A stretch of 64,000 bases of DNA from Micromonospora peucetia. GTDB lineage: Bacteria; Actinomycetota; Actinomycetes; Mycobacteriales; Micromonosporaceae. The notes beneath the pieces were generated by a model. It was not told the DNA's origin. It saw only the letters and a list, made by a program, of their open reading frames with translations, and made no database searches. Positions within the stretch are counted from its first letter, which is position 1, and every line of letters starts with the position of its first letter. The DNA lies in assembly GCF_900091625.1 (NCBI RefSeq), contig NZ_FMIC01000002.1:4774001-4838000 (forward strand), given 5' to 3'. Positions 20,737-62,608 of this stretch are shown in pieces. The position numbers and the translations under genes are program-made.

Positions 20737-21171
20737 ATGACTGTCGTCTGGGGCATGACTGTGGACTGTGCCGATCCGGCCCGCCTGGCCGCGTTCTGGC
20801 GCGAGGCCCTCGGCTACGTGGACGCCCCGGTGCCGGGAGGCTTCGCGAGCTGGGAGGAGTGGCTGGTCCGCTGGGAGGTGCCGCGCGAGGAGTGGAACGA
20901 CGGCGCCTACCTGGTCGACCCGCGGGGGGTGGGACCGAGTGTCTCGTTCCTGAGGGTGCCGGAACCGAAGGTCGTCAAGAACCGGTTGCACATCGACATC
21001 AAGGCAGGCGGCCGGGACGAGCCGCAGGAGGTCCGGTGGCCCCGCGTCACCGAGACCGTGCGGCGGCTGACCGAGGCGGGCGCGACGGTGGTGAGTCAGG
21101 ACGTGGTGGACGGCGTCCCCAGCCACGTCGTGATGGCCGATCCCGAGGGCAACGAGTTCTGCGTCGTGTGA
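20737..21171 (+). CDS. VOC-family (glyoxalase/bleomycin-resistance fold) protein
   Basis: The product is 144 aa. It has the VOC pattern: an N-terminal DCADPARLAAFWREALGY, a central HIDIKA strand and a C-terminal MADPEGNEFCVV. This resembles the actinobacterial Glyoxalase_6-type subgroup, most of which are uncharacterised metal-dependent or binding proteins. Between the SARP and the hot-dog genes, it could be a small-molecule binding or resistance protein of the cluster, but nothing in the sequence proves that. The frame continues upstream to 20680, but the ATG at 20737 directly precedes the conserved start. Confidence 0.75.
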   Translation: MTVVWGMTVDCADPARLAAFWREALGYVDAPVPGGFASWEEWLVRWEVPREEWNDGAYLVDPRGVGPSVSFLRVPEPKVVKNRLHIDIKAGGRDEPQEVRWPRVTETVRRLTEAGATVVSQDVVDGVPSHVVMADPEGNEFCVV

Positions 21172-21224
21172 ACCGGCGCGGCAGCCGCTCGCCCGGGTGC
21201 CGTGCCTGATGTGACCCGCCGTGT

Positions 21225-21241
21225 TGTAGAGAAGATATAGC
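21225..21241 (+). promoter_or_regulatory. Promoter box shared with the KAS III gene (TGTAGAGAAGNTAT)
   Basis: TGTAGAGAAGATATAGC lies 22 bp before the GTG at 21263. The same box, TGTAGAGAAGCTATGAG, lies before the KAS III gene at 23811-23827. The first ten bases are identical and the TATAGC/TATGAG part could serve as the -10. It is likely a common promoter or activator site for the two plus-strand acyl operons. Confidence 0.45.
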
Positions 21242-21262
21242 TGGTCGCCGCATGGTGACCGG

Positions 21263-21628
21263 GTGAACACCCTGACAACGGCCGACTGCGCGACGACGGT
21301 ACCCGTCGACGTGGAGCATATCGCCCCTGACACGATCGTGGCCCGAATCCGCCCCGACCTTGACGATCCGGTCTTCGCCGGCCACTACCCCGGATTCCCG
21401 CTGCTGCCGGGGGTGCACATCTTCGAGTTCGTGCACCGGGCGGTCCGCGCGGTGGCCCCCGAGCTGGTGCTGACCGAGATCGTCAGCTGCCGCTTCCTGC
21501 TGCCCTTCCGGGGCGACGACGAACTCGTCGTGACGATCCGCCGGACCGGCGACCTGTGGCGCGGCGAGGTCGCGGTCGCGGCCGTACCGGTCGCCGAGGT
21601 GCTGCTGCGCTACGGGAACGAGGAGTGA
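21263..21628 (+). CDS. FabZ-like hot-dog dehydratase subunit carrying the catalytic His
   Basis: The product is 121 aa from a GTG. It contains FAGHYPGFPLLPGVHIFEF, matching the FabZ HFPGxPxxPGVLxxE block with both the catalytic His and the following Glu. It lacks the N-terminal LPHRxPxLLVDRV segment of normal FabZ. That missing piece is present in the next gene, so the two may form one heterodimeric 3-hydroxyacyl-ACP dehydratase. The predicted role is to dehydrate the 3-hydroxyacyl intermediate of the lipopeptide starter acid. It is first in a three-gene run: the next gene starts 5 bp after its stop. It is preceded by the TGTAGAGAAG box. Confidence 0.75.
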   Translation: MNTLTTADCATTVPVDVEHIAPDTIVARIRPDLDDPVFAGHYPGFPLLPGVHIFEFVHRAVRAVAPELVLTEIVSCRFLLPFRGDDELVVTIRRTGDLWRGEVAVAAVPVAEVLLRYGNEE

Positions 21629-21633
21629 GCCCC

Positions 21634-22167
21634 ATGATGGGTATCGAGGAGATCAGAAAGATCATCCCCCACCGGCCGCCGATGCTGCTGGTGGACCGGG
21701 TCACCGAGCTGGTGCCCCGGCGGCGGCTGGTGGGTTCGCTCACCGTCACCGGTGACCGGCCGCTGCCGATGTCGCTGCTTCTGGAGTCCTGGGGGCAGGC
21801 GGCGTTGGTGCTTATCCGCCACGACCGGCCGATGCCGGACGTGCTCACCGACGGCGTGCCGGTGGCCGGGGTGTTCGAGCACATCCGGTTCGGTCGGCCG
21901 GTGCTGCCCGGGGAGACGGTGGAGCACCACGTCACCATGAACAGGCTGGTCGCCGACACCGCCTTCGTCACCGGTGAGAGCTTCGTCGGGGCCACCGTGG
22001 TGCTGCGGGTCGGTCGGCTGGTCGGGGCGATGCGGTCGGTGGAGTCGCTGCGCGCGTCCCTGGACGCGGCGGCCCTGGAACGGCAGGCAGCCGCGGATCG
22101 GGAGGCGGCCCCGGGACACCCGGCGGCGGTTGTCTCCGGGACAGCGACGTCCGGGGTGGCGCGGTGA
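21634..22167 (+). CDS. FabZ-like hot-dog protein lacking the catalytic His segment
   Basis: The product is 177 aa. The ATG at 21634 is chosen because GGAG lies 8 nt upstream, at the end of the preceding gene. It begins with the FabZ N-terminal block IPHRPPMLLVDRVTELVP. The region that should contain HFPG instead reads TGDRPLPMSLLLESWGQAA: the Glu-like position is kept but the catalytic His is gone. A hot-dog core and a low-complexity Ala-rich tail follow. The preceding gene has the reverse pattern. FabZ active sites form across a dimer interface, so a heterodimer of the two is plausible. Alternatively this is a non-catalytic partner. Confidence 0.75.
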   Translation: MMGIEEIRKIIPHRPPMLLVDRVTELVPRRRLVGSLTVTGDRPLPMSLLLESWGQAALVLIRHDRPMPDVLTDGVPVAGVFEHIRFGRPVLPGETVEHHVTMNRLVADTAFVTGESFVGATVVLRVGRLVGAMRSVESLRASLDAAALERQAAADREAAPGHPAAVVSGTATSGVAR

Positions 22168-22910
22168 GCGCCGGTGGGCGTCCGGTCGCCCTGGTCACCG
22201 GTGGCTCGCGGGGCATCGGCCGGGCGGTGGTGCAGCAGCTCGTCCGGGACGGCTACGACGTGGCCATGTGCTACCAGTCCAGCAAGGACGCCGCCGACGA
22301 GGTGGTCGCGGAGGCGGCCCTGGCCGGCGGGCGCGTGCTCGCGATGATGGTCGACGTCGCCGACCCCGCGGCCGTTCGGGAGTTCGTGTCGACCGCCGAG
22401 CGGGAACTGGGCGACGCCGACGCGGTGGTCAGCGTCGCCGGCATCATCCGGGACAAGCCGCTGGCCCTGATGTCCGACGCCGACTGGCGCTCGGTCATGG
22501 AGGTGAACCTGGACGGCACCTACCACCTCTGCCGCGCCGTGGTCCGCCGGATGATGCGCCGCCGCGCCGGGGCGATCGTCACGGTCTCCTCGGTGTCCGG
22601 GGTGGCCGGAAACCCGATGCAGACCAACTACTCCGCCTCCAAGGCCGGCGTCATCGGCTTCACCAAGGCGCTCGCGAAGGAGGTCGGCCGGTACGGCATC
22701 CGGGCGAACGTGGTCGCGCCGGGCTACATCGACACCGACATGATCGCCGCCCTCTCCGGCGAGCTGGGTGCCATCGCCCGGGACCGGGTGGCCCTGGGCC
22801 GGCTCGGACGCAGCGAGGAGATTGCCGAGGTGGTCTCGTTCCTGCTCTCGTCCCGCGCGTCGTACCTGACCGGACAGGTGATCACCGTGGACGGCGGCCT
22901 GTCGATGTGA
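22164..22910 (+). CDS. fabG: 3-oxoacyl-ACP reductase, FabG-type SDR
   Basis: The product is 248 aa, the standard FabG length. The NADP-binding TGGSRGIGR is near residue 12 and the catalytic SSVSG, then YSASK, are near 140-160. The C-terminal GQVITVDGGLSM is typical. It starts at a GTG overlapping the TGA of the hot-dog gene (GTGA), so it is translationally coupled. It should reduce the 3-oxoacyl-ACP made by the KAS III to the 3-hydroxyacyl form, which the hot-dog pair could dehydrate. Its 3' end overlaps the convergent SDR gene by 29 bp. Confidence 0.9.
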   Translation: MSAGGRPVALVTGGSRGIGRAVVQQLVRDGYDVAMCYQSSKDAADEVVAEAALAGGRVLAMMVDVADPAAVREFVSTAERELGDADAVVSVAGIIRDKPLALMSDADWRSVMEVNLDGTYHLCRAVVRRMMRRRAGAIVTVSSVSGVAGNPMQTNYSASKAGVIGFTKALAKEVGRYGIRANVVAPGYIDTDMIAALSGELGAIARDRVALGRLGRSEEIAEVVSFLLSSRASYLTGQVITVDGGLSM

Positions 22911-23718
22911 CCGGCCGCCGGCCACCACCGGCGACGACCCTCAGATACCAGGGGCCGAGCAGCCGGGTCAGGATGTCGGTGCGGTACGCGTCCGCCCCGA
23001 TCAGGATCCGGGCCCGGTTGCGCGCCACCCCGCGCAGGATGGCCCGGGCGGCGTACTCCGCCGAGATGTCGACCGTCCGATCGAACTGCTCCCGGACGGC
23101 CTGGTAGTCCCGCTGCCCGTCGTTGCGGGCGTTGTGCATGATGTTCGTCCTGATCCGGCCGGGGTGCACGCAGCTCACCCCGACCGGCACCCCGTCGGCC
23201 CGCAGCTCCTGCGCCACCGCCTCCGTGAAGCCCCGGACGGCGAACTTGGCGGCGTTGTACCCGCTCTGCATCGGCGCGCCGGCCAGCCCCAGCACGCTGG
23301 AGACGTTGACCAGGTGACCGCGCGACTCGGTCAGCAGCGGCAGGAACGCCCGGGTGCCGTGCACGACACCCCAGAAGTCGACGTTCATCACCCATTCGAG
23401 GTCTTCCCAGGACCCGTCCGCGACCGAGGCGAGCAGGGTCACCCCGGCGTTGTTGACGAGCAGGTCGACGCGGCCGAAGTCGGCGCCCACCTGCTCGGCG
23501 TGCGCCAGCACCGCCACCCGGTCCGCGACGTCCAACCGGTACCCGTGCACCTGGCCCCCGTGACCCGCGCAGCCCCGCACGGTCTCCCGCAGCCCCTCGT
23601 CGTCCACGTCGGAGAGGGCGAGCCGGGCACCCCGGGCGGCAAGCTCGACGGCGAGCGCCCGGCCGATGCCGGACCCGGCGCCGGTGATCACGGCCACCTT
23701 GTCAGTGAAGTCTCTCAT
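22882..23718 (-). CDS. SDR-family oxidoreductase
   Basis: The product is 278 aa. It has the nucleotide-binding TGAGSGIGR near residue 13, NNAG near 90, and the catalytic Ser and YNAAK (near 155). The long C-terminal segment (FDRTVDISAEYAARAIL, then RILIGADAYRTDILTRLL) resembles actinobacterial SDRs of acyl or steroid metabolism rather than FabG. A GGAAAGG site precedes the ATG. It is the only minus-strand gene inside the cluster. Its promoter shares a 179-bp gap with the KAS III gene, and its 3' end overlaps fabG. It could modify the acyl starter or be an older resident gene. Confidence 0.8.
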   Translation of the reverse strand: MRDFTDKVAVITGAGSGIGRALAVELAARGARLALSDVDDEGLRETVRGCAGHGGQVHGYRLDVADRVAVLAHAEQVGADFGRVDLLVNNAGVTLLASVADGSWEDLEWVMNVDFWGVVHGTRAFLPLLTESRGHLVNVSSVLGLAGAPMQSGYNAAKFAVRGFTEAVAQELRADGVPVGVSCVHPGRIRTNIMHNARNDGQRDYQAVREQFDRTVDISAEYAARAILRGVARNRARILIGADAYRTDILTRLLGPWYLRVVAGGGRRPVTSTGRRPR

Positions 23719-23897: not shown

Positions 23898-24854
23898 ATG
23901 TCGGACACCTTCGGTTCGGCGATCACCGGGCTCGGCGCCTACCGGCCCACCCGCGTGGTCACCAACCCGGACATCGCACTGCGTACGGAGGTGACCCCGG
24001 AATGGATCGAGGAGCGCACCGGGATCAAGACCCGGCACAGCGCCGGTCCGGGGGAGACCGTGCCGGTGATGTCGGCCGAGGCCGGCGCGAAGGCGCTGGC
24101 CATGGCGAACGTCGACCCCTCCGAGGTTGACCTGCTCATCCTGGCCACCGCCACCAAGCGGGACCGGATCCCGGGCGGCGCGCCGGAGGTCGCGCACCGG
24201 ATCGGCATCCCGGCCACCGGCGCGTTCGACCTGAACGCCGCCTGCGCCGGGTTCGCCTACTCGGTCTCGGTCGCGTCCAACGCGGTCCGCCTCGGCGAGG
24301 CGCGCAACGTGCTGGTCATCGGCGCCGAACACCTCACCGAGTTCATCGACCCCGAGGACCCCGCGACCTACGTCATCTTCGGCGACGGCGCCGGCGCCGC
24401 GGTCATCTCCCGCTCCGAGACCCAGGGCATCGGCCCCGTGGTGTGGGGCAGCGACGGCCGCCGGGCCCCGATCCTCGGCACGAAGTGGGCGAAGGACGGC
24501 AAGGAGTACGCCTCGATGAACGGGCCGCTGGTCTACCGGTGGTCCACCAAGAACATCCCCCCGGTCGCGCGGGAGGTTTGCGCCCGCGCGGGAATCGACC
24601 TGTCGGAGATCGACTGGTTCGTGCCACACCAGGCGAACCTGCGGATCATCGAGCAGCTCGCCGAGATCCTGGAGATCCCGGAGGAGAAGGTCGCCCGGGA
24701 CGTGGTCGACACGGGGAACACCTCGGCGGCCTCGGTGCCGCTGGCCCTGAGCCGGCTGCACGAGAGCGGCCGTACCAAGCCCGGCGACAAGGCGCTGCTG
24801 CTCGGGTTCGGTGCCGGCCTCGCCTACGCCGGCCAGATCGTCCGGATGCCCTGA
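23898..24854 (+). CDS. 3-oxoacyl-ACP synthase III (KAS III, FabH-like)
   Basis: The product is 318 aa, the normal length. The Cys-His-Asn triad is visible in LNAACAGFAYS (near residue 115), PHQANLRI and GNTSAAS; GFGAGLAYAGQIVRMP closes the fold. The ATG at 23898 follows GGGAG. KAS III enzymes condense an acyl-CoA with malonyl-ACP. With the fabG, hot-dog pair and ACP here it probably makes a short 3-oxoacyl-ACP that becomes the N-terminal acyl group of the peptide. No second ketosynthase or chain-length factor is present, so perhaps only one dedicated elongation takes place. An ACP gene follows 23 bp downstream. Confidence 0.9.
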   Translation: MSDTFGSAITGLGAYRPTRVVTNPDIALRTEVTPEWIEERTGIKTRHSAGPGETVPVMSAEAGAKALAMANVDPSEVDLLILATATKRDRIPGGAPEVAHRIGIPATGAFDLNAACAGFAYSVSVASNAVRLGEARNVLVIGAEHLTEFIDPEDPATYVIFGDGAGAAVISRSETQGIGPVVWGSDGRRAPILGTKWAKDGKEYASMNGPLVYRWSTKNIPPVAREVCARAGIDLSEIDWFVPHQANLRIIEQLAEILEIPEEKVARDVVDTGNTSAASVPLALSRLHESGRTKPGDKALLLGFGAGLAYAGQIVRMP

Positions 24855-24877: not shown

Positions 24878-25117
24878 ATGACCGTTGACCAGGTGGCCGC
24901 CGACATCGAGCAGCTGACCCGCAAGCTGATGACCGAGGACCCGGAGCGGCCGATCTCCGCCGACGACACCTTCGTGGACCTGGGCCTCGACTCGCTCAAG
25001 CTGGTCGACCTTCTCGGCGCCGCGGAGGTCCACTTCGACATCGAGGTCCCGGACGAGGAGGTCGGCAACTTCGTCCGCGTCCAGGACCTGACCGACTTCG
25101 TGCTCGCCGCCAAGTGA
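24878..25117 (+). CDS. Acyl carrier protein
   Basis: The product is 79 aa, with the phosphopantetheine attachment motif LGLDSLKLVDLL (Ser near residue 39) and an acidic four-helix ACP profile. AAAGGA lies 7 nt before the ATG. Its stop overlaps the GTG of the free-standing condensation gene (GTGA). Placed between the KAS III and that condensation protein, it is the likely carrier that hands the acyl chain to the NRPS. Confidence 0.93.
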   Translation: MTVDQVAADIEQLTRKLMTEDPERPISADDTFVDLGLDSLKLVDLLGAAEVHFDIEVPDEEVGNFVRVQDLTDFVLAAK

Positions 25118-26475
25118 GCGCCGGCGACGGGGACGCCCGGGAGCTGTCCGTCGGTCAGGCCGCGCAGTGGGCGCTGTACCGACTCGCGCCCGAGAGCTCG
25201 ACCAGCAACGTGGTGACGGCCGTGCTCGCCGAGCCGGCTTTCGACCTCGATGTGCTGCGGGCCGCCCTCGTCGCCGTGCAGGATCGGCACGATCTGCTCC
25301 GGTCCCGGTTCACCGAGACCGGCGTGGAGCCGGTGCGGCTGGTCGACAAGGCCGGCTCGGGCGCACTCGAGGTACGTGACGTCGGCGACGTGGACGACGA
25401 AGCCCTGCGGACGTTGATCCGTGCCGTCGGCGAGCAGCCGCTCCGGCTCGGATCCGACGGCCCGCTGCGGGCGGTGTTGCTGCGCCGTCGCACGGACTGC
25501 GCGCTGGTGCTGGTGATCCACCACATCGCCACCGACGGGCTGTCCCAGCGGCTGATCTGGCGGGATCTCAGCGACGCGTACCAGGTGCTGCGGGGTGGCG
25601 GCGCGGTGGACTGGCCGACGCGGCCCAGCTACGACGAGTTCGTCGCGCGTGAGCAGGCCATGCTGGCCGGCCCCCGGCGCGCCGAACTGGCCGAGCACTG
25701 GGCAGGCACCTGCGCCGGGGCCACGGCCGCCACCCTGTCCACCGACCGGCCCCGCCCCGCCCTCCGGTCCTACCGGGGCGCGGCCGTCGCCCGGATGCTG
25801 CCGGACGAGGTCGCCCGGCAGGTGCGCGCCACGGCCGCCGACCTGGCGGTGACCCCGTTCAGCGTCCTGGTCGGCGTCTTCGAGGCGCTGCTGCACCGCT
25901 GCACCGGGCAGGGCGAGTTCACCATCGGCTGCCCGGTGTCGGTGCGGCGGGGGCGGGCGCTGCGGGAGGTGGTAGGGATACTGGTGAACCTGGTCGTGCT
26001 GCGGTCGTCGTTCGTTCCCGGCACCACCTTCGCGTCGGCGATCGCCGACGCGGGACGCCAGCTCTCCGACGGCGTGGCACGGGCCGCCTACCCGTTCTCC
26101 CTGGTCCAGGCGGCCCGCCGGGACCGGGACCCGCTGGTGCGGGTCACCATCACCCTGCTCACCCGGCAGCACGACGACACCATGTCCGACACCAGCAACG
26201 GTTTCGTCGGGCACCGGACCCGTCAGCTGATGGTGCCCTACGACGAGGGCCAGTTCGACCTCGCCGTGACGATCCACCAGCTGCCGGACCTGGCCCTGCG
26301 CACCGAGTTCAACTACGACACGGACCTGCTCGACCGGGCCACCGTCGAGCGGCTCTTCGACCAGTACCTGGCCCTGCTCGGCGCCGCCTGCGCCGACCCG
26401 GCCGCGATCGTCGCCGACGCCCCCATGGCGGGCGACTCCGAGCAGCGGATGCTGCTCGAACTCGGCATGAGCTGA
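25114..26475 (+). CDS. Free-standing condensation-domain protein, candidate N-acylating (starter C) enzyme
   Basis: The product is 453 aa, one complete condensation domain with no adenylation or carrier domain. It has the intact HHxxxDG motif as HHIATDG (near residue 137), a TIGCPVSVRRGR latch-type region and a FNYDTDLLD C-terminal block. It starts at a GTG overlapping the ACP stop, so it is coupled to it. The first NRPS begins directly with an A domain and has no starter C domain. This protein therefore probably joins the ACP-bound acyl chain to the first carrier-bound amino acid. An alternative role is condensation elsewhere in trans. Confidence 0.85.
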   Translation: MSAGDGDARELSVGQAAQWALYRLAPESSTSNVVTAVLAEPAFDLDVLRAALVAVQDRHDLLRSRFTETGVEPVRLVDKAGSGALEVRDVGDVDDEALRTLIRAVGEQPLRLGSDGPLRAVLLRRRTDCALVLVIHHIATDGLSQRLIWRDLSDAYQVLRGGGAVDWPTRPSYDEFVAREQAMLAGPRRAELAEHWAGTCAGATAATLSTDRPRPALRSYRGAAVARMLPDEVARQVRATAADLAVTPFSVLVGVFEALLHRCTGQGEFTIGCPVSVRRGRALREVVGILVNLVVLRSSFVPGTTFASAIADAGRQLSDGVARAAYPFSLVQAARRDRDPLVRVTITLLTRQHDDTMSDTSNGFVGHRTRQLMVPYDEGQFDLAVTIHQLPDLALRTEFNYDTDLLDRATVERLFDQYLALLGAACADPAAIVADAPMAGDSEQRMLLELGMS

Positions 26476-26572: not shown

Positions 26573-27553
26573 ATGGATCAGGGAATTCTCTCCACGGTCG
26601 GCAATACGCCTCTGGTACGACTGGACCGGTTGTTTCCCGAGTTTCCCGCCCGGGCGTACGCGAAACTCGAACAGTTCAATCCGGGTGGGAGCATCAAGGA
26701 CCGGGCGGCGCTGAACATGCTGCGCGGAAAGATCGAATCCGGTGAACTGGCGCCGGGACGTTCCGTGGTGGTGGAGTCCAGCTCCGGCAACCTCGCCATC
26801 GGCCTGGCCCAGATCTGCGCGTACTTCGGTATCCGGTTCATCTGCGTGGTGGACCCGAAGACGACCCGGCAGAACCTGGCGGTGCTTGCCGCGTACCAGG
26901 CCGAGATCGACATGATCGAGCACCCCGACCCGGTGACCGGCGAGTACCTCGCGGTCCGGCGGCGCCGGGTGCGCGAGCTGGTCGAGACGGTGCCCGGCGC
27001 CTACCGCCCGGACCAGTACACGAACCCGCTCAACGCCCAGGCCCAGCGGCAGACCATGGCCGAGATCATGACCGAACTGGACGGCCGGGTCGACTATCTG
27101 TTCTGCTCCACCGGCACCTGCGGCACCCTGGTCGGCTGCGCCGACTACCTGCGCGAGGGCGGACACCACACCCGGATCATCGCGGTCGACGCGGTCGGCA
27201 GCGCGATCTTCGGTCATCCGCCCGCCCCCCGGCTGATCCCCGGGCACGGCGCCTCGGTCGTGCCACCGCTGGCCGCCAGCGCCAGGCCGGACGAGGTGCT
27301 GCACGTGTCCGACCTGGACTGCGTGGTCGGGTGCCGGCTGCTGGCCGTCCGGGAGGCCATTCTCGCCGGCGGGTCGTCCGGGGCGACGGTGGCCGCGCTG
27401 CGCCGCCGGATGGCGGACCTTCCCGCCGGGAGCACCAGCGTCCTGATCTTCCCGGACAACGGCGACCGCTACCTCGACACCATCTACTCCGATCGCTGGG
27501 TGACCGAACAGTTCGGCGAGGTCAGCCACCTGTGGAAAGGCGACAAATGCTGA
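26573..27553 (+). CDS. sbnA: 2,3-diaminopropionate biosynthesis protein SbnA-like (PLP-dependent)
   Basis: The product is 326 aa of the cysteine synthase/CBS fold. The PLP-binding Lys lies in GGSIKDRAA (near residue 43), followed by ESSSGNLAIGLA and the STGTCGTLVGC loop. In the staphyloferrin B pathway SbnA joins O-phospho-L-serine and glutamate to give N-(1-amino-1-carboxyethyl)-glutamate, the first step to L-2,3-diaminopropionate. The end of the gene overlaps sbnB by 7 nt, and SbnB does the second step, which makes the assignment firm. It supplies Dap to the NRPSs downstream. Confidence 0.92.
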   Translation: MDQGILSTVGNTPLVRLDRLFPEFPARAYAKLEQFNPGGSIKDRAALNMLRGKIESGELAPGRSVVVESSSGNLAIGLAQICAYFGIRFICVVDPKTTRQNLAVLAAYQAEIDMIEHPDPVTGEYLAVRRRRVRELVETVPGAYRPDQYTNPLNAQAQRQTMAEIMTELDGRVDYLFCSTGTCGTLVGCADYLREGGHHTRIIAVDAVGSAIFGHPPAPRLIPGHGASVVPPLAASARPDEVLHVSDLDCVVGCRLLAVREAILAGGSSGATVAALRRRMADLPAGSTSVLIFPDNGDRYLDTIYSDRWVTEQFGEVSHLWKGDKC

Positions 27554-28584
27554 TCATCGGCCATGCCGTGGTCCGGGACGTGCTCGACGGCGACGAGGCG
27601 CGGGTCATCGACATCGTCCGACAGGCGTACCTCCTGCACGAGCAGGGCCGCACGAGTGTGCCCCACTCGGTCTTCCTGCGCTTCCCCGACAACGCCCGCA
27701 ACCGGATCATCGGACTGCCCGCGTACCTGGGCGCCGACCCGCCGGCCGCGGGCATGAAGTGGATCTCCTCGTTCCCGGCGAACATCGAGCGGGGCCTGGA
27801 CCGTGCCAGCGCCGCCATCGTGCTCAACTCGCTCGACACCGGTCAGCCCGACGCGGTGATCGAGGGGTCGGTCATTTCCGCCGCGAGGACCGCGGCCGGC
27901 GCGGCCCTCGCCGCGCAACTGCTGACCGCCGACCGTCGCCCCGACGGCCTGGCGCTGATCGGCTGTGGGCTGATCAACCAGCAGGTGCTGCGCTTCCTGA
28001 CCGTGGCTCTGGCGCCGCCGGCCTCGCTCGTGCTGCACGACTCCGACCCGCGACGGGCCGAGGCGTTCGCCACCAGGGCGGCAGCCCTGCTGCCGGCCAC
28101 GACGATCAGTGTGGTGGGCAGCGCCGAGGAGGCTCTGGCCGCCCACCGGCTGGTCTCGATCGCCACCACCGCCAGCGATCCGCACCTGGAGCTGACCGCC
28201 TGCCAGCCGGAGAGCGTGGTGCTGCACCTGTCGCTGCGCGACCTGCACCCCCGGGCGGTCCTGTCGGCTCGCAACGTCGTCGACGACCCCGACCACGTGT
28301 GCCGCGAGCGCACCTCGCTGCACCTCGCCGAACAGCTCACCGGCGGCCGGGACTTCATCCACACCACCATCGGCCGGCTGGCCGGCGGTGCGGCGCTGCC
28401 CTCCGCCGACGTTCCCGGCCCGGTGGTGGTCTCGCCGTTCGGGCTGGGCGTCCTGGACATCGCGCTGGCCCAACACGTCCGCGACACGGCGGCCCGGCGG
28501 GGCCTCGGCGTGCGGATCGACGACTTCACACCCGTACCGGCCGCCGCCGTGGCGACCGCGGAACCTACGAGGGAGAAACCATGA
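27547..28584 (+). CDS. sbnB: 2,3-diaminopropionate biosynthesis protein SbnB-like dehydrogenase
   Basis: The product is 345 aa of the ornithine cyclodeaminase/mu-crystallin fold. It has GMKWISSFPANI, the Rossmann LIGCGLINQQ and the HLSLRDLHP segment typical of SbnB. SbnB oxidatively splits the SbnA product to L-Dap, 2-oxoglutarate and NADH. The ATG at 27547 lies inside the end of sbnA, and its own stop overlaps the MbtH gene (ATGA). The pair indicates one or more Dap or Dap-derived residues in the peptide. Confidence 0.92.
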   Translation: MLIIGHAVVRDVLDGDEARVIDIVRQAYLLHEQGRTSVPHSVFLRFPDNARNRIIGLPAYLGADPPAAGMKWISSFPANIERGLDRASAAIVLNSLDTGQPDAVIEGSVISAARTAAGAALAAQLLTADRRPDGLALIGCGLINQQVLRFLTVALAPPASLVLHDSDPRRAEAFATRAAALLPATTISVVGSAEEALAAHRLVSIATTASDPHLELTACQPESVVLHLSLRDLHPRAVLSARNVVDDPDHVCRERTSLHLAEQLTGGRDFIHTTIGRLAGGAALPSADVPGPVVVSPFGLGVLDIALAQHVRDTAARRGLGVRIDDFTPVPAAAVATAEPTREKP

Positions 28585-51800: not shown

Positions 51801-54800
51801 GGGTGCGCTGCTGCACGGCAGCCGGCTGGTGCTGGTGCCCCGCGAGGTGGCCCGGGTGCCGCAGGACCTGCTGGACCTGCTGGTGACGCAGCGGGTCACC
51901 ATGCTGGCGCAGACCCCGACGGCGTTGCGCGGGCTCGTCCGGCTCGCCGCCGAGGACGCCCCCGGCATCCGGGACCTGTCGCTGCGCGCGGTGGTGATCG
52001 CGGGGGAGAAGCTCGACTTCACCGAGCTCGCGCCGTGGGCAACCCGCCTCGGGCTGGCCCGGGTGGCGCTGGTCAACATGTACGGGATCACCGAGACCAC
52101 CGTCTACTCCACCTACCACCGGATCACCCGGGCCGACCTGGCGCCCGGGGTGGGCAGCCGGATCGGCCGGCCGCTGTCCGGGGTCCGGATGTACGTGCTC
52201 GACCAGTACGGCCACCCGGCGCCCATCGGGGTGCCCGGCGAGGTCTACCTGGCCGGCCACGGGGTGGCGAGGGGCTACCTCAACCAGCCCGAGCTGACCG
52301 CGACGCGGTTCCTGCCCGACCCGTACGGCCCGCCCGGCAGCCGGATGTACCGCACCGGTGACCTGGCCAGCCGGCTGCCCGACGGCAGCGTGGAGTTCCT
52401 TGGCCGCCTTGACGACCAGGTGAAGGTCCGTGGCTACCGGATCGAGCCAGGCGAGATCGAGGCGGCGCTGACCGCCGTGCCCGGCGTCGAGGAGGCGGTC
52501 GTCGTGCTCCGCGCCGACGACCCGGCCGACCCTCGACTGACCGCGTACCTGGTGACCGGTGACGGGCACCTGCCGGAGGTCGGGCCGCTGCGCGCGCGGC
52601 TGGCGCTCGGCCTGCCGGAGTACATGATCCCGGCGGCGTTCGTGGTGCTGGACCAGTTGCCCCGCAACAACAGCGGCAAGCTGGACCGGCGGGCCCTGCC
52701 CGCGCCGACGGGCGGCACCCCGGTCTCCGGCCGGGACCTCGTCGGACCGGCCGGGCCGCTGGAAGAGCGGGTCGCCGGCATCTGGGCCGACGTGCTGGGC
52801 CTGCCGGCGGTCAGCGTCTGCGACGGCTTCTTCGACCTCGGCGGGCACTCGATCACGGCGCTCGTGCTGGCCAGCACGATGCGCGCGGCCGGGCTGGACG
52901 TGACGGTGGCGGACATCTTCCGGCACCCGACCGTCCGGGCGCTCTGCGAGGTGCTGGCGAGCCGGGACGCGCCGGAGCCGACCGAACGCCCGGTCGAGCC
53001 CTTCGAGCTGGTCGCCCCCGCCGACCTTCCGCTGCTGCCGGACGGGCTGGGCGACGCGTACCCGCTGTCGCGGGTGCAGCTCGGGATGCTGCTGGAGATG
53101 CTGGCGGACAACGGCCAGAACCACTACCACAACGTCGTCTCGTTCCTCATCCCCGACGGCGAGCCGTTCGACCTGGTGACGCTGCGGGCCGCCGTCAACG
53201 AGGTGGTGGCCCGGCACGACGTGCTACGTACCTCGGTGGACACCACCAGCTACTCGGTGCCCATGCAACTGGTGCACCGCACGGTGGACGTCCCGGTCCG
53301 CACCAGCGACCTGCGCGGGCTGGCCGAGGCGGACCGGGTGTCCCTGGTGCGCCGGCTCGTCGGTGAGGAGTACAACGAGCTGTTCGACGTCGAGCGGGCG
53401 CCGTTGCTGCGGTTCACCGTGTGCCTGGAGACGGACCGGAGCTGGCGGCTGGTGCTCACCATCTGCCACGTGATCATCGAGGGCTGGAGCCTGCACGCCC
53501 TGGTGATGGAGATCCTCGACCGGTACCACGCCCGACGGGCGGGCGCCGGCCCCGACGCCACCACCACCCCGCCCGGGGTGCGGTTCGCCGACTTCGTCGC
53601 CGGCGAGCTGAGCGCCCTGGCCTCGGCGGACGACCAGCGGTACTGGCAGGACGTGGTGGAACGCCACCCGAGGTTCCTGCTTCCCGCAGGCTGGACGCCG
53701 TCGGCGCCGGCCACCCGGGAGCCGTACACCGAGGTGGTGTCCTACGCGGACCTGGAGCCTCGGCTGCGGGCCCTGGCCTCGGCGGCCCGGGTGTCGCTCA
53801 AGGCGGTGCTGCACGCCGCGCACCTGAAGGTGCTCAGCCAGCTCACCGACGAGCCGGTCTTCTACAGCGGGCTGGTCTGCAACACCCGGCCCGACGTGGT
53901 GGGCAGCGAGCGGGTCTACGCCATGTCGCTGAACACCCTGCCGTTCCCGCACGACCGGCGGGCGACCAGCTGGCGGGAGCTGGTCCAGCGGGTACACGCC
54001 CGGGAGGCCGACCTGTGGCCGCACCGGCGCTACCCGGCGCCGGCCATCCGCACCCCCGGCCGCGGCGCCCGCCTCACCGACGTCTACTTCAGCTACCTGG
54101 ACTTCACGCAGGTGGACGGCGGGCGCACCGCGCCGGTGCAGCGGATCGGCGCGAGCACCTCCGAGTTCGCGCTCGCCGTCGCCGCGGGCGCCGGCCGGCT
54201 CGAACTGAGCACCGACAGCCACGCCATGGGCCGGGCCGACGCGGCGCGGCTGGCCGGCATGTACCGGCTGGTGCTGGAGGCCATGGTGGCCGACCCCGAC
54301 GGCGACCCCCGCGAGGCGTACCTGCCCGCCGGGGAGCGCGACGACATGCTGGTGGGCTGGAACTACTCGGCCACTCCGGGGTGCGTCGACCTGGTGCCGG
54401 CCCGGGTGGCGGCGCGGGCCGCGGCGACCCCCGACGCCGAGGCCGTCGACGGCACGACCTACGCCGAACTGGACGCGGCGGCCAACCGGATCGGCCACCA
54501 CCTGCGCGGCGCCGGGGTCGGCCCGGAGCGGGTCGTGGGGGTGCTGCTGGAGAGGGGCGTCGACCTCGTCGCCGCCCTGCTCGGGGTCTGGCGGGCCGGC
54601 GGCGCGTACCTGCCGATCGATCCGGCACACCCGGCCGAGCGGGTGGCCGCGATGCTCGCCGACGCCGGGGCGACGGTGGTGGTGACCTCGGCCGGCTACG
54701 CCGACCGGTTCGCCGGGGTGGAGCTGGTGCTGCTCGACCGCGACGCCGACAAGATCGCGGGGCTGCCCGTCGACCCGCCGGCCGGCCGGCCCGACCCGGA

Positions 54801-57180: not shown

Positions 57181-58163
57181 TGACGACCGTATCGAGCACT
57201 CCCGCAGCGGTCACCGACCCGCCGGCCCGGCAGGTGCGGCACCTGGTGTCGATCCGCGACCTGGCCGACGACGATCTCTACTCGATCGTGGCCCGGGGGG
57301 CGAGGTTCGCCGCCGGCGAGTCCGCCAACTCGCTGGCCGACCGGGTGGTGGGCACCTATTTCGTGAAGACGTCGACCCGGACCCGGACCGCGTTCACCGT
57401 CGCCGCGCTGCGGCTCGGCGCGAAGACCATCCAGTACGGGCCGAACGACCTCCAGGTCAACACGGGGGAGTCCAGCGCGGACACCGGCCGGGTGCTGTCC
57501 GGCATGCTCGACGTGCTGGTGGCGCGTACCGCCGCCGACCCGGGGGAGATGCGCGACTGGTCGCAGCAGGACCGGATGGCCGTGGTCAACGCGATGAGCG
57601 CCGAGGAACACCCGACGCAGGCGCTGGCCGACCTGACCACGCTGCTGCGGCGCTTCGGCCGGATCGAGCACCTGCGGCTGCTCTACCTGGGCGAGGCGAA
57701 CAACACCGCGACCGCGCTGGCCCTGGCGCTGACCCGCTTCCCCGGCGTGGAGCTGGAGCTGCGCACCCCGGCGGGGTACGGGCTGCCGGCCGACATCGCG
57801 GCTGACGCGCGGACGCAGGCGCAGCGCTGCGGTGCCCGGATCGTCGAACGGCACGACATGGACGACCTGCCGGGCGACGTGGACGCCATCTACACCACCC
57901 GCTGGCAGACCACCGGCACCAGCAAGCCCGACCCGGACTGGCGGGCGCACTTCGCCCCGTTCCAGGTGGACCTGGAGCTGTGGCGGCGTAGCCCGCACGC
58001 GGTCTTCATGCACGACCTCCCGGCACACCGGGGGGAGGAGGTGACCGCCGAGGTGCTCGACGGGCCGGCCAGCATCGCCTTCCAACAGGCGGAGAACAAG
58101 CTCTACAGTGCGATGGCCGTGCTCGACTGGTGCCTGGCCACGCCCGCCGGACATTCGTCGTGA
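57180..58163 (+). CDS. Ornithine-carbamoyltransferase-like enzyme with altered substrate motif
   Basis: The product is 327 aa. The ATG at 57180 overlaps the NRPS2 stop by one base, with GGAGG 7 nt upstream. The carbamoyl-phosphate sites are intact: STRTRTAF near residue 62 and HPTQALADL near 142. The usual OTC ornithine motif HCLPAHRGEEV reads HDLPAHRGEEV, and the SMG-loop region reads RWQTTGTSKPD. The enzyme should transfer a carbamoyl group, but probably not to ornithine. In a Dap-making NRPS operon the likely product is a ureido group on Dap (beta-ureidoalanine), either as free amino acid or later. Ordinary OTC activity is the alternative. Confidence 0.88.
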   Translation: MTTVSSTPAAVTDPPARQVRHLVSIRDLADDDLYSIVARGARFAAGESANSLADRVVGTYFVKTSTRTRTAFTVAALRLGAKTIQYGPNDLQVNTGESSADTGRVLSGMLDVLVARTAADPGEMRDWSQQDRMAVVNAMSAEEHPTQALADLTTLLRRFGRIEHLRLLYLGEANNTATALALALTRFPGVELELRTPAGYGLPADIAADARTQAQRCGARIVERHDMDDLPGDVDAIYTTRWQTTGTSKPDPDWRAHFAPFQVDLELWRRSPHAVFMHDLPAHRGEEVTAEVLDGPASIAFQQAENKLYSAMAVLDWCLATPAGHSS

Positions 58164-59521
58164 GCGCGGTCGGGCACCCGACGGCCACGTCCGGGCAGCC
58201 GGGCCGCCTGACCGGCAACCGTGACTTCCTGCTGCTCTGGGTCGGCTCGGGGGTCTCCGCGCTGGGTTCCCGGGCCACCTCGATCGGCTACACCCTGCTG
58301 GTCTTCTGGTCCACCGGATCGGCCACGGCGGCCAGTCTGGTCACCTTCGCCGCGCTGCTGCCCAACCTGGTCACCCAACTGCCGGCGGGGGCGCTGGTCG
58401 ACCGCTGGGACCGCCGCCGGACGATGGTGCTCTGCAACGTCGGGCGGATCATCGCGATCGGCAGCGTCGCGGTCGCCGTCGCCCGGGACTCGGTGTGGCT
58501 GCCGCACCTGATGGTGGTCGCGTTCGTGGAGGCCAGCCTGGGCATCTGTTACGCCCTGGCCGAACGCGCCGCGGTGTTCAACGTGGTGCCGTCCGACCAG
58601 TACGGCGCCGCCACGGCGGCCAACGAGTCGCGGGCCAACGCGGCCAGCATCCTCGGCCAGCCGGCCGGCACCCTGCTGTACGCGCTGACCCGCTGGGCGC
58701 CGTTCGGCTTCGCCGTGCTGATGCACGTGATCTCGCTGGTCACCCTGCTGTTCGTGCGGCGGGACCTGCAGGCGCCGAAGGCGCGCGCGGACGAGCCCGG
58801 TGGCCTGCTGGCCCGGGTGCGGGAGGGCTTCGTCTTCGTCTGGAGCCAGGTCTACCTGCGCCGCGCCCTCGGTCTCTTCGCGGCGAGCAACATCCTGTTC
58901 CAGGTGCTGGGCCTGGGCCTCGTGGTGATCGTCAAGAATCAGGGCGGCTCGCCACCCACGGTCGGCATCCTGCTGGTGGTGAACAGCGTCTTCGGCATGG
59001 CCGGCGCGATGACCAGCAACTTCTACCTGGGACGCTGGGGGATCCGCCGGATCATCATGGGGGTCAACATCGCCTGGGCGGTGCTGATGCCGCTGCTCGC
59101 GCTGGCACCGGGACTCGTCGTCATCGGTGCGATCTTCGCGTTGATCCACTACGGCGCCGGCATCAGCAACGTGGCCGGGATGTTGTACGTGCTCCAGGCC
59201 GCGCCGGACCACCTGCGCGGGCGGGCCGGCTCGATCGTCATGCTGCTCAGCTCGGGAGCCAACTCGCTGGGGGCGCTGTTCGCGGGCTTCCTGCTCGACT
59301 CGACAAGCATCACCAAGGCCATGCTGATCGTGGGCGGGGCGATGGGGGTGATCGCGGTGCTCGCGGTGCTCGGCTTCGGCGGTCGCGCCCGTGCCGAGGA
59401 GGAGCGGGCCGACGCCGAGCGGGCTGCGACTGAGCGGGCTGAAGCCGAGCGGGCCGAAGCCGCCGCCGAGGCTGGGCGGGCCGAGGCCGAGCCTGCGGTG
59501 GGGAAGACGCCCGCCGGGTGA
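58160..59521 (+). CDS. MFS exporter, likely for the peptide product
   Basis: The product is 453 aa from a GTG overlapping the previous stop (GTGA). About 12 hydrophobic helices are seen, with the loop motif VDRWDRRRTMV between helices 2 and 3. It resembles drug-exporter MFS proteins of the MFS_3/EntS type, which often export siderophores or peptides. The last ~40 residues are an unusual Ala/Glu/Arg tail built of AEAERAEA-like repeats, probably a helical cytoplasmic tail. Its coupling to the NRPS operon points to export or self-protection. Confidence 0.88.
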   Translation: MSAVGHPTATSGQPGRLTGNRDFLLLWVGSGVSALGSRATSIGYTLLVFWSTGSATAASLVTFAALLPNLVTQLPAGALVDRWDRRRTMVLCNVGRIIAIGSVAVAVARDSVWLPHLMVVAFVEASLGICYALAERAAVFNVVPSDQYGAATAANESRANAASILGQPAGTLLYALTRWAPFGFAVLMHVISLVTLLFVRRDLQAPKARADEPGGLLARVREGFVFVWSQVYLRRALGLFAASNILFQVLGLGLVVIVKNQGGSPPTVGILLVVNSVFGMAGAMTSNFYLGRWGIRRIIMGVNIAWAVLMPLLALAPGLVVIGAIFALIHYGAGISNVAGMLYVLQAAPDHLRGRAGSIVMLLSSGANSLGALFAGFLLDSTSITKAMLIVGGAMGVIAVLAVLGFGGRARAEEERADAERAATERAEAERAEAAAEAGRAEAEPAVGKTPAG

Positions 59522-59618: not shown

Positions 59619-60554
59619 ATGAACGAGCACGCGAGCTGGAAGCCGTTGGAGATCACCCCGGAGAGCGCGGGCTGTGCGCCGAGCGCCGACGGCCTGGTCG
59701 GCCACCTGCGCGAGTTGAACCTGGCGGAGGTGCTCACCGCGGAGAAGGCGCTCGTCTTCCGTGGCTTCGGCGTCCGGCCGGAGACCCTGGACCCGGTGAT
59801 GGACCTGCTGCTGCCGAGGCGACTGGCCTATGTGCACGGCAACTCGCCCCGCACCAAGGTGGGGCGCAACGTCTACACCTCCACCGAGTACCCGGCTCGG
59901 TACACCATCTCCATGCACAACGAGCTGTCGTACGCCGCGCAGTGGCCGGCCCGGCTGCTCTTCTTCTGCCAGATCGCCGCCGAGACGGGCGGCGCCACCC
60001 CGGTCGTCGACGCCGAGTTGTGGCTCAACTCGCTGGACCCGCAGCTGCGCGCCGACTTCGCCGGTGGACTGCGTTACCAGCAGAACCTGCATGACGGCAT
60101 GGGGCTGGGCAAGAGCTGGCGGGACACCTTCGAGACCGACAGCCGCGACGAGGTCGAGGAGTTCCTCGCCGGCGCCGGTGCCACCTGGGAGTGGACCGCC
60201 GACGGGCTGCGCGTGATCCAGCTCCGCCCGGCCACCCTGCGGCACCCGGTCACCGGGGTCGAGGTGTGGTTCAACCAGGCGGACCAGTGGCACCCGGCCG
60301 GCCTGGACGACGACATCGCCCGGGTGATGACGCAGGTGATGGGCCCGGACGAGCTTCCCCAGTCGGTGACCTTCGCCGACGGCTCACCGATCCCCGACGA
60401 GTACGTCACCCAGATCCGCGACCGTGGTCTGGAGGCCGCGGTCGACGTCGACTGGCGGGTCGGCGACCTGCTGCTGATCGACAACGTGCTCACCGCGCAC
60501 GGCCGGCGCCCGTACACGGGTGACCGTCGGGTGCTGGTGGCGATGTCGGACTGA
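59619..60554 (+). CDS. TauD/TfdA-family Fe(II)/2-oxoglutarate dioxygenase (SyrP-like)
   Basis: The product is 311 aa. The ATG at 59619 has GGAG 8 nt upstream. The iron-binding HxE pair is in SMHNELSYAA (near residue 99) and the distal His in LTAHGRRPYTGDRR; the Arg residues after it should bind 2-oxoglutarate. The WFNQADQWHP region matches the SyrP/clavaminate-synthase-like group, whose members hydroxylate amino acids free or on carrier proteins, for example Asp by SyrP. With three Asn-like A domains in NRPS2, beta-hydroxylation of an Asn or Asp residue is the leading guess. Hydroxylation of a Dap-derived residue is also possible. Confidence 0.87.
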   Translation: MNEHASWKPLEITPESAGCAPSADGLVGHLRELNLAEVLTAEKALVFRGFGVRPETLDPVMDLLLPRRLAYVHGNSPRTKVGRNVYTSTEYPARYTISMHNELSYAAQWPARLLFFCQIAAETGGATPVVDAELWLNSLDPQLRADFAGGLRYQQNLHDGMGLGKSWRDTFETDSRDEVEEFLAGAGATWEWTADGLRVIQLRPATLRHPVTGVEVWFNQADQWHPAGLDDDIARVMTQVMGPDELPQSVTFADGSPIPDEYVTQIRDRGLEAAVDVDWRVGDLLLIDNVLTAHGRRPYTGDRRVLVAMSD

Positions 60555-60581
60555 CGGGCGGGGCCGAGAGAGGTGACCCAG

Positions 60582-61376
60582 ATGTCCCTGCTCCGCCGCC
60601 CGGTCGGCGGCGATCCGTGGCTGCGGGTGTTCCGGGGCGGCGGTGACGCCGGGGTGCGGTTGGTGTGTGTGCCGCACGCCGGCGGGGCGGCCGGCTTCTT
60701 CCAGTCGTGGGCGGCCCGGCTGCCGGACTCCGTCGACCTGCTCGCCGTCCGCTACCCCGGCCGGCAGGACCGGCTCTCCGAGCCGTGCGTCGAGCGGATG
60801 GACCCACTCGCCGACCGGATCACCGAATCGCTCACCCCGTACCTGGACCGCCCGCTCGCGCTGTTCGGGCACAGCATGGGCGCGTCGGTCGCCTACGAGG
60901 TGGCCATCCGGCTCGAGGAGCGGTTCGGGATCGTGCCGACCGTCCTGTTCGTCTCGGGGCACGGCGCACCACACGTCACGCGCATCGACCAGGATCCGGA
61001 CGACTTCGACGACGAGGAGTTCCTCGCCCGGATCGCCGCGCTCGGCGAGGTGGACGCGGCGGTCTTCCGCTCGGCGAAGCTGCGGGAACTGGTGGTGCCG
61101 GCGCTCCGCGCGGACCTGCGGCTGATCCACGGCTACCTGCCGCGCGCGCCGCGAAAGGTGTCCGCGCCGATCGCGGCGTACCTCGGCACCGGGGACCCGG
61201 CCTGCGACCGGGAGTCGGTCTCCGCCTGGGCGGAGCTGACCACCGGCGGCTTCCGGCTGCGGGCGTTTCCCGGTGACCACTTCTACCTGGTGCCGGCGCA
61301 GGCGGACCTGCTCGCGGATCTGACCGCGCAGCTCGGCGGCCTGCTGACCGCACCACGGGCGGCGGCGCCTTGGTGA
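60582..61376 (+). CDS. Type II thioesterase
   Basis: The product is 264 aa from the ATG at 60582, with GAGAGG about 9 nt upstream; the GTG at 60573 is too close to that site. It has the N-terminal VCVPHAGGAAGFFQSW oxyanion region, the nucleophile motif GHSMGA (near residue 98) and the C-terminal GDHFYL with the catalytic His. Enzymes of this kind remove wrongly loaded groups from carrier domains. Since NRPS2 lacks a classical thioesterase, a role in release cannot be excluded. Confidence 0.92.
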   Translation: MSLLRRPVGGDPWLRVFRGGGDAGVRLVCVPHAGGAAGFFQSWAARLPDSVDLLAVRYPGRQDRLSEPCVERMDPLADRITESLTPYLDRPLALFGHSMGASVAYEVAIRLEERFGIVPTVLFVSGHGAPHVTRIDQDPDDFDDEEFLARIAALGEVDAAVFRSAKLRELVVPALRADLRLIHGYLPRAPRKVSAPIAAYLGTGDPACDRESVSAWAELTTGGFRLRAFPGDHFYLVPAQADLLADLTAQLGGLLTAPRAAAPW

Positions 61377-61429
61377 CCGCCCGCCTGACCTGACCGGCAC
61401 CACCGTAGTCGCACCATGGAGGGCACACC

Positions 61430-62608
61430 GTGACCGAACTGGACGTCGAGGCGACGCCGTCGCCGCTCGTTGACCTGGACCAGGATCGCTACGCGCGGTT
61501 CCGGATCTCCTTCGAGGCGGTGACAAACTTCGGCCGCCAGCTGCTGGCAGCCCGGTTGGCGGCGATGGACGTCCTGCCCGCTCACGGCGCCACAGCCGGC
61601 CGGGGTGAGATCCTGGCCCGGCTCGCGGTGGCTCCCGAATACCAGCGGCTCGGCGACGCCCTGCTCGACATCCTGGAGCGCGCCGACCTCCTGCGCCGGC
61701 ACGGCGACCGGCTCGCCGTGACGGACCGGGTCGCCGAGGTGGCCGGGCTCGCCGAGGACGATGCGGTCGACGCGGCGGCGACGGCGCTGCGGCGGGAGCA
61801 TCCGGAGGCGGCCGGGTACGTGCCGCTGCTGGTCGCCTGCCAGACGCAGCTGGTCGAGGTGGTCCGGGGCGAGCGGCCGGCGAACGAGGTGCTCTTCCCG
61901 GGCGGCTCGGCGGACCTGGTCTCCGCGATCTACCAGGACAACATCCAACTGGACTTCTACAACCGGCTCTGCGCGGCGCGGGTGCACGAACACGTGGGGC
62001 AGTTCCTCCGGCGCTACCCCCGCTCCTACGCCCAGGTCCTGGAGGTGGGGGCGGGGACCGGTGGCACCACCGGCCCGGTGCTGGACGCACTGGCTGACCG
62101 GGCCGAGCGGTTGCGCTACTTCTACACCGACGTGGGCCCGGCGTTCCTGCGGCTGGGGCGGAGGAGCCTCGGCGCCACCCGGCCCTACCTGGACTTCGCC
62201 CGGTACAACGTGGAGAGCGCGCCCGAGGAGCAGGGCTTCGAACCCGGCTCCATGGAGGTCGTCCTGGCCAGCAACGTCCTGCACGCCACCCTGCGGATCT
62301 CCACCGCGCTGCGGCACTGCCACTCGCTGCTCAAGCCGGGCGGCATCCTGGTGGTCAACGAGATGACCAGCCGCCTCGACTACAACACGTCGACCTTCGG
62401 GCTGGCCGAGGGCTGGTGGCGGCACGCCGACGACGAGCCGCGCGTCGAGTCGTCCCCACTGCTGGACGTGGCCGGCTGGCAGGCCGCCCTGCGCGAGGCG
62501 GGCTTCGTCGACGTGCGGGCGCACGGTGTGCCGGGACTGGACGACGGCGAGCAGGTGCAGACCGTGTTCGTGGCGACGGCCACCGGCCAGGCGGGGCCGC
62601 CCCGCTGA
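61430..62608 (+). CDS. SAM-dependent methyltransferase related to PKS/NRPS methyltransferase domains
   Basis: The product is 392 aa from a GTG with AGGG upstream. The SAM motif I is LEVGAGTGGTT (near residue 206), followed by YTDVGPAFL, VLASNVLHAT and the post-motif FGLAEGWW, which resembles C-methyltransferase domains of reducing polyketide synthases. The N-terminal ~180 residues look like the usual helical cap of such domains. It stands free and is the last gene of the plus-strand run. It may methylate the acyl starter, consistent with a C-methyltransferase type, or a residue of the peptide. Confidence 0.82.
   Translation: MTELDVEATPSPLVDLDQDRYARFRISFEAVTNFGRQLLAARLAAMDVLPAHGATAGRGEILARLAVAPEYQRLGDALLDILERADLLRRHGDRLAVTDRVAEVAGLAEDDAVDAAATALRREHPEAAGYVPLLVACQTQLVEVVRGERPANEVLFPGGSADLVSAIYQDNIQLDFYNRLCAARVHEHVGQFLRRYPRSYAQVLEVGAGTGGTTGPVLDALADRAERLRYFYTDVGPAFLRLGRRSLGATRPYLDFARYNVESAPEEQGFEPGSMEVVLASNVLHATLRISTALRHCHSLLKPGGILVVNEMTSRLDYNTSTFGLAEGWWRHADDEPRVESSPLLDVAGWQAALREAGFVDVRAHGVPGLDDGEQVQTVFVATATGQAGPPR

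Follow-up and report, generated by a model that had tools for sequence, protein, structure and literature searches.

In the part of PMC4581275 available to us, transcarbamylases are described that convert diaminopropionate (Dap) to beta-ureidoalanine in the viomycin and zwittermicin clusters; an HDLP motif is given as typical of Dap and diaminobutyrate (Dab) enzymes, and a DxxxSMG motif as the mark of ornithine enzymes. Penicillin-binding protein (PBP)-type thioesterases, which use a tetrad of Ser, His, Asn and Lys, are described as stand-alone only in the accessible part of a 2024 review (PMC11735501). Here we analyze a stretch of 64,000 nucleotides from the genome of Micromonospora peucetia (7.37 Mb, two contigs), G000:C2:4774001-4838000, hereafter the window. 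It carries a nine-module nonribosomal peptide synthetase (NRPS) lipopeptide gene cluster, which we confirm to be real and conserved. The enzyme families are already known, and so are the types to which the cluster belongs, from which it departs in two real ways: a PBP-like release domain fused in cis to the second NRPS, and a linked LanA/LanM pair. We establish gene content, domain order, family assignments and conservation, and we infer all substrates, the way in which the chain is released and the product itself. As judged from the genes, the product is probably an acylated nine-residue peptide that contains Dap and ureido-Dap (beta-ureidoalanine) and is released by the PBP-like domain.

A conserved nine-module NRPS cluster

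The core of the cluster is formed by two NRPS genes on the forward strand, to which all coordinates refer unless the reverse strand is named. NRPS1 (28850..33862) has the domain order A-T-C-A-T (A, adenylation; T, carrier; C, condensation). NRPS2 (whole protein 33859-57180) has seven C-A-T modules (33859..56133) and ends in a beta-lactamase/PBP-like domain (56134..57180). Every A domain is followed by a carrier motif. Nine A3 motifs, two in NRPS1 and seven in NRPS2, agree with the nine adenylation domains counted in an earlier annotation made from the letters alone, the sequence-only reading. All other parts named there (acyl starter set, SbnA/SbnB, OTC-like carbamoyltransferase, TauD-type oxygenase and exporter) were found close to where it placed them, and its acyl-nonapeptide architecture, lipo-initiated with nine modules, is borne out. 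Two further members were absent from it, an MbtH-like gene (28581..28787, start inferred; PF03621; conserved) and a type II thioesterase gene (60573..61376; PF00975).

The starter set lies upstream of the NRPS genes. It consists of an ApeI/FabZ-like dehydratase (21263..21628; PF22818 28.1 bits, cut-off 28.5; conserved), a FabA-like dehydratase with a GTG start (21625..22167; PF07977 20.6 bits, cut-off 23; conserved), a FabG-like ketoreductase (22164..22910; PF13561; TIGR01830 288.2 bits, cut-off 297.75), a FabH-like beta-ketoacyl synthase III (23898..24854; PF08541/PF08545; NF006829 361.3 bits, cut-off 249), a free-standing acyl carrier protein (ACP) with an ATG start (24878..25117; PF00550) and a free-standing C domain with an intact HHIATDG motif (25114..26475; PF00668). 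On the free ACP, FabH, FabG and the two dehydratases would assemble a chain with short extension, probably of the beta-hydroxy or 2-enoyl type, which the free C domain would hand to residue 1 on NRPS1, a protein that starts with an A domain. The sequence-only reading had described one run of coupled genes. Not all of its genes point the same way: a short-chain dehydrogenase/reductase (SDR) gene (22882..23718; PF00106) lies among them on the reverse strand. The SDR gene is present in G226, G246, G285, G273 and G222; in G324 the FabG place alone was matched.

To assess conservation, we searched 354 Micromonosporaceae genomes. Five relatives (G226, G246, G285, G273 and G222) hold the cluster genes in identical order. 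The gene for a methyltransferase-like protein (61430..62608; PF08242) is included in two of these, G226 and G246, occurs in G320 and G324 as well, and does not adjoin the cluster in G285, G273 and G222. The nine A-domain codes of the five relatives match those of the window position by position with few substitutions. Because five other genomes hold identical gene order and near-identical nine-module codes, the cluster is far from a chance arrangement. Six more genomes (G150, G175, G213, G258, G320 and G324) resemble the window in two parts, by which their likeness was judged: A1 (69-81% identity) and the carbamoyltransferase (78-83%). The last two of these, G320 and G324, are from a different genus. 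Besides Micromonospora, in which the cluster is conserved, at least one further genus of the family shares it, as judged from its parts. A search of named genomes with the carbamoyltransferase returned nine loci. Six share 64-79% identity with it: two in Micromonospora, two in Amycolatopsis, one in Streptomyces and one in a Catenulispora metagenome-assembled genome. Identity is 77.8% to the M. orduensis protein and 79.4% to that of M. arida. Literature searches on the product, the residues, the release domain and LanM beside an NRPS gave no matching product; the sequence-only reading had recognized none either.

Probable Dap carbamoylation and the likely residues

A gene set for Dap carbamoylation in the cluster is well supported by its sequence marks. 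SbnA (26573..27553; TIGR03945 402.6 bits, cut-off 349.95) and SbnB (27547..28584, ATG start; TIGR03944 387.3 bits, cut-off 326.9) both exceed curated cut-offs, which upholds the dedicated Dap supply proposed earlier. They would produce L-Dap, and the transcarbamylase (57177..58163) would convert part of it to ureido-Dap. This protein belongs to the ornithine transcarbamylase (OTC) superfamily (TIGR00658 237.9 bits, cut-off 280.85). Its carbamoyl-phosphate motifs are present, SxRT as STRT and HPxQ as HPTQ; HDLP replaces HCLP, and DxxxSMG is absent. Because HDLP is present and DxxxSMG lacking, as published for Dap and Dab enzymes, the transcarbamylase is not of the ornithine type. The genome's own ArgF has HCLP and DTWTSMG and scores 362.9 bits with TIGR00658, above the cut-off. 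With this separate ArgF in the genome, we rejected ArgF as the identity of the carbamoyltransferase in the window, which bears the marks of Dap/Dab transcarbamylases.

At E <= 1e-90, the transcarbamylase is found in 63 of the 354 genomes. SbnA above cut-off is found in 83, and the two occur together in 53 (hypergeometric 3e-31, at the level of genomes and uncorrected for kinship). HDLP is present in 86 of 87 aligned transcarbamylase rows, in which some genes are represented twice.

We read the A-domain codes by alignment to a GrsA fragment. They are DAWQFATID (A1) and DLPIWASVI (A2) in NRPS1, and DVWNIALVH (A3), DLPKVAEVG (A4 and A5), DVAEAGTVD (A6), DVAHAGTVD (A7), DVWAVAMVY (A8) and DMTKVGEVA (A9) in NRPS2; in three relatives A3 reads DFW[SC]TGMVH. 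By comparison with known codes, A1 is Gln-like, A3 Thr-like and A4, A5 and A9 Asn-like; an acidic residue at position 278 marks diamino-acid domains. A1 differs at two of nine positions from the Gln code DAWQFGLID, and DLPKVAEVG at two of nine from the Asn code DLTKVGEVG. A6 is acidic at 278 (Glu) and looks diamino-acid-like; A7 differs from it by E278H. Ureido-Dap (albizziine) is a Gln look-alike. Based on these codes, we suggest that residue 1 may be ureido-Dap in a Gln-like pocket, residue 3 Thr, residues 4, 5 and 9 Asn-like or ureido-Dap, and residue 6, perhaps with residue 7, Dap or a related diamino acid; residues 2 and 8 are left without proposal. Of the Dap- and possibly ureido-Dap-containing acyl-nonapeptides predicted in the sequence-only reading, the Dap gene set and the nine modules stand, whereas we infer the positions of the two residues.

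The distribution of the A domains bears on these assignments. A1-like domains (E <= 1e-150) occur in 34 of the 354 genomes and A4-like domains (E <= 1e-135) in 27, and all 34 and all 27 carry the transcarbamylase together with SbnA above cut-off; in both searches, scoring was limited to the top four candidates of each genome, and related genomes are not independent. Because A1-like domains are confined to transcarbamylase genomes, ureido-Dap is suggested as the A1 substrate. This distribution favors ureido-Dap at position 1 but does not prove it. Stretches around 67 of the 73 transcarbamylase places were examined (all but those in G150, G213, G224, G134, G258 and one of those in G175). A DA[WF]Q code was read in the fetched stretch at 34 of the 67, and at 16 others an A1-like match lies on the same contig, its code not read.

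The same codes could also mean that A1 loads Gln, that A4, A5 and A9 load Asn, that Dap enters at A6 (and A7) only, and that the transcarbamylase acts late, on Dap in the finished peptide. Late carbamoylation of a peptide Dap residue is known from viomycin. The small distance of A1 and DLPKVAEVG from the Gln and Asn codes and the Glu at 278 in A6 fit this assignment, as does PMC12283262, which in its accessible part treats DLTKIGEVGK among Asn/cyano-Ala codes (the same part reports two Dap codes 80% identical to Dab codes). However, plain Gln or Asn domains would need no transcarbamylase, and the confinement of A1-like (34/34) and A4-like (27/27) domains to transcarbamylase genomes, as seen among the four top candidates in each of the 354 genomes, speaks against it. 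We consider this assignment rather unlikely.

Several observations nevertheless weigh against ureido-Dap formation and incorporation as proposed. SbnA above cut-off is lacking in 10 of the 63 transcarbamylase carriers, 30 of the 83 SbnA genomes have no transcarbamylase, and the co-occurrence counts depend partly on shared ancestry. Three Bacillota rows combine HDLP with DxxxSMG; therefore, HDLP alone is not decisive, and by sequence the motif fits Dab enzymes too. A6 agrees with the ornithine or Dab codes at just 4-5 of nine positions. DLPKVAEVG and DMTKVGEVA are Asn-like, so that the Dap content may be small. Finally, 15 of the 67 transcarbamylase sites have A domains but no DA[WF]Q, and two have no A domain (several stretches were shortened). 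The link between A1 and ureido-Dap is therefore not universal. If the link is correct, the HDLP transcarbamylase gene would flag ureido-Dap peptides in the 63 family genomes that carry it, and DAWQ[FC]ATID would become a candidate A-domain code for ureido-Dap. To our knowledge, specificity predictors lack such a code.

Modules 4 and 5 possibly result from a recent module duplication: GC skew over these modules is 0.24 at 38-40 kb, 0.13 at 42-44 kb and 0.05 between, and A4 and A5 have identical codes and 90% protein identity. We also observed a third transcarbamylase-linked NRPS family (L092, L093, L142, L145, L147 and L152), in which DAFQVGVIN, DLPKVAEVG, DFFSVGMVH and DVFS[IV]AMVH alternate.

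Two genes downstream of the transcarbamylase would act on the peptide or its export. The TauD-family Fe(II)/2-oxoglutarate oxygenase (~59619..60554, start inferred; PF02668) has MHNELSY and AHGRR, in which the HNE and the distal His give the HxE/D...H pattern; among NCBIfam models the trimethyllysine-dioxygenase model alone matched, far below cut-off. It would hydroxylate one residue. The sequence-only reading called it a SyrP-like dioxygenase; family and HxE/D...H pattern agree, and a SyrP-type enzyme would act on carrier-bound Asp. The major facilitator superfamily (MFS) protein (58130..59521; PF07690) would export the product.

Condensation and release domains

Nine Pfam condensation matches are found in the window: the free-standing C domain, one in NRPS1 and seven in NRPS2. 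No dual condensation/epimerization motif was seen in NRPS2, and no epimerization (E) domain was found among the nine modules. With nine C-family domains for nine modules, none is spare for epimerization. The peptide is predicted to be all-L because there is no E domain. In NRPS2 (37600-53480), all C domains but one have lost the first His of the HHxxxDG motif; these six read CHPIMDG, SHGILEG, SHLVTGG (twice), SHVVTEG and CHVIIEG; both SHLVTGG motifs also lack the Asp. The seventh reads HHIACDA, and the C domain of NRPS1 reads HHIASDA. A pattern search caught six altered motifs in G226 and G246, five in G285, and four in G273 and G222. We assume that the NRPS2 C domains with altered motifs are active, because they retain the second His.

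The last 348 residues of NRPS2, which the sequence-only reading overlooked as a domain, match PF00144 over positions 17-331 (149 bits, cut-off 27). Residues 6-334 match 6ksu (E 3.2e-11), SurE, the chain of which is described as Alpha/beta hydrolase; other solved PBP-related enzymes are matched as well. At the aligned catalytic places, the window domain has SVSK, ERN and THRG. We aligned 28 rows taken from the cluster and its relatives, a single gene sometimes giving more than one row. All 27 rows long enough to include SxxK retain it; the Asn of YxN is present in 26 of 28, and the His further on in 27 of 28. The Tyr, which belongs to the YxN motif of the PBP/beta-lactamase family, is replaced in all 28 rows by Glu, Lys, Arg, Leu or Pro, and by Glu in the window. 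Because the Ser, Lys, Asn and His tetrad is kept, replacement of the Tyr says less about altered chemistry. A structure model from a four-row alignment had a pLDDT of 37.1, too poor for use.

Through its serine, the fused domain would free the chain either hydrolytically or through cyclization onto a side chain. Head-to-tail ring closure is impossible because the chain is N-acylated. In literature searches aimed at NRPS-fused PBP-type release domains, we recognized no paper that describes one. If the assignment is correct, the cis-fused domain would provide a test case for whether such enzymes can perform side-chain ring closure or accept L residues. Side-chain closure would break the rule of known members, which are stand-alone, act head to tail and have a C-terminal D residue. 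The most specific version of this scenario seems improbable when its parts are taken together: an N-acylated all-L nonapeptide would be released by the cis PBP-like domain, without the usual Tyr, through cyclization onto a side chain within the peptide (such as the Dap beta-amine), and the product would contain ureido-Dap and be co-produced with a TTCCP peptide from a LanM without the cyclase His.

The LanA/LanM pair, flanking genes and known systems

The second departure is a LanA-like open reading frame (14986..15222, reverse strand) that adjoins the gene for LanM, a class II lanthipeptide synthetase (15309..18581, reverse strand; TIGR03897 621.1 bits, cut-off 304) whose true start is probably further inside. 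The pair was also overlooked in the sequence-only reading. The LanA-like precursor has 78 residues and its membership in the cluster is uncertain. It consists of a hydrophobic segment (best 19-residue mean 2.2 in the window copy) and a tail, APMTTCCPERPW; no NCBIfam match was obtained at E <= 1 and no Pfam match above cut-off. In the LanM cyclase, the SHG motif, whose His has a role known from NisC, reads ADG in the window. SHG is replaced in 16/16 LanMs near transcarbamylase clusters and kept in 2/2 control LanMs, and the LanC zinc-ligand motifs are kept in 18/18 LanMs compared.

LanA homologues occur in 23 of the 354 genomes. In all 12 genomes with the close form of the cluster, LanA lies beside it, sharing a contig with A1 at a distance of 12.8-15.0 kb, and in G149 and G210 it lies ~10 kb from the carbamoyltransferase of another cluster type. 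Matches at E <= 1e-7 away from carbamoyltransferase matches are found in G174, G198, G028, G038 and G014, besides four weak matches. The transcarbamylase is megabases off on the same contig in G174 and G038 and on another contig in G028; G198 and G014 have no transcarbamylase match. Motifs were read at 12 of the loci in the 23 matching genomes. All 12 have a tail with TTCCP or ITCCP and a replaced SHG, including G174 and G198, where no transcarbamylase is near. The changed cyclase is therefore a trait of the LanA/LanM pair, not of a link to the NRPS. Located via the Pfam family DUF4135, LanM genes are found in 45 of 160 genomes of the genus. The pair accompanies the cluster yet also occurs on its own; it may yield another product, act as a signal or serve as a partner.

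LanA/LanM and the NRPS might instead form one pathway or a co-produced pair and not two neighboring clusters, as the position of LanA near A1 in all 12 genomes would suggest. LanM also directly adjoins the second transcarbamylase in the M. peucetia genome, in G246, in G226 and in G263. However, the LanA homologues far from any transcarbamylase and the changed cyclase motif in G174 and G198 point to independence from the NRPS. Furthermore, no LanM lies within 16 kb upstream in G322, whose starter genes are related, and most LanM genes of the genus lie elsewhere. We find a single pathway or a co-produced pair doubtful. Elsewhere in the M. peucetia genome, we observed a second NRPS cluster (G000:C2:4565000-4624999; L034-L036), with SbnA at 62%, SbnB at 58%, TauD at 39% and an HDLP carbamoyltransferase at 63% that is directly followed by LanM; its small LanA-like peptide ends in GTGGHSSA and has no Cys.

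A lipopeptide siderophore, with iron bound by hydroxylated Asp/Asn-type residues and export by an EntS-like MFS protein, is very unlikely: the TauD hydroxylase and the use of SbnA/SbnB in staphyloferrin B as well (PMC4668381, accessible part) are compatible with it, but the match of the MFS protein to the enterobactin exporter EntS is weak (41.4 bits, cut-off 324), the predicted Asn-like, Thr and Dap residues would be poor ligands, and no hydroxamate, catechol or siderophore uptake genes were found among the scanned window proteins.

Conserved neighbors to the left reach ~11996. A LuxR-type regulator with AAA_16 (11996..14974, reverse strand; PF13191, PF00196) has 92% identity in G226 and G246 and 63-68% in G285, G222 and G324. 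A SARP/BTAD regulator (18835..20658; PF03704) is present in G226, G246, G285, G273, G222, G324 and G322. The gene for a glyoxalase-like protein (20680..21171; PF18029) is found in G226 and not in the four other relatives read (G246, G285, G273 and G222). Further left, on the reverse strand, lie genes for an erythromycin-esterase family protein (4888-6090), a long catalase (6993-9350) and a nitroreductase-family protein (10502-11941).

Comparison with known systems places the cluster among several described types. The PBP-type thioesterases SurE, PenA, Ulm16, FlkO and WolJ share with the window domain the PBP/beta-lactamase family and the Ser-Lys-Asn-His tetrad. They are stand-alone proteins with a C-terminal lipocalin-like domain and act on chains with a C-terminal D residue, with an E domain upstream. 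In contrast, the window domain is fused to NRPS2 with no room for a lipocalin-like part, its YxN motif has lost the Tyr, and the NRPS has no E domain and would present an N-acylated chain. In Bacteroidetes, the chitinopeptins and further Dap lipopeptides also have sbnA/sbnB in a lipopeptide NRPS cluster, but they come from another phylum and use E and thioesterase domains, and the accessible part of PMC9248904 does not mention a transcarbamylase. The rotihibin cluster of Streptomyces scabies shares an acyl-peptide, a ureido residue at position 1 (citrulline there), a diamino acid, MbtH and an Asn oxygenase, as described in the accessible part of PMC8552735. It differs in its fatty acyl-AMP ligase (FAAL) starter, E and reductase domains, six modules, Dab, and a gene table without a carbamoyltransferase (same source, same part). 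We rejected a close resemblance, as starter, domains, module number and Dab differ. A tuberactinomycin cluster was rejected as well: for the capreomycidine synthase VioD (TIGR03947), the M. peucetia genome gave no match above cut-off and 19 below. The Dap transcarbamylase (DPTCase) systems of viomycin, capreomycin and zwittermicin A are alike in their transcarbamylase, as judged by motifs: both enzymes belong to the OTC superfamily and have HDLP without DxxxSMG, and both are encoded with SbnA/SbnB-type Dap genes and NRPSs. Here, the transcarbamylase sits in a lipopeptide cluster instead.

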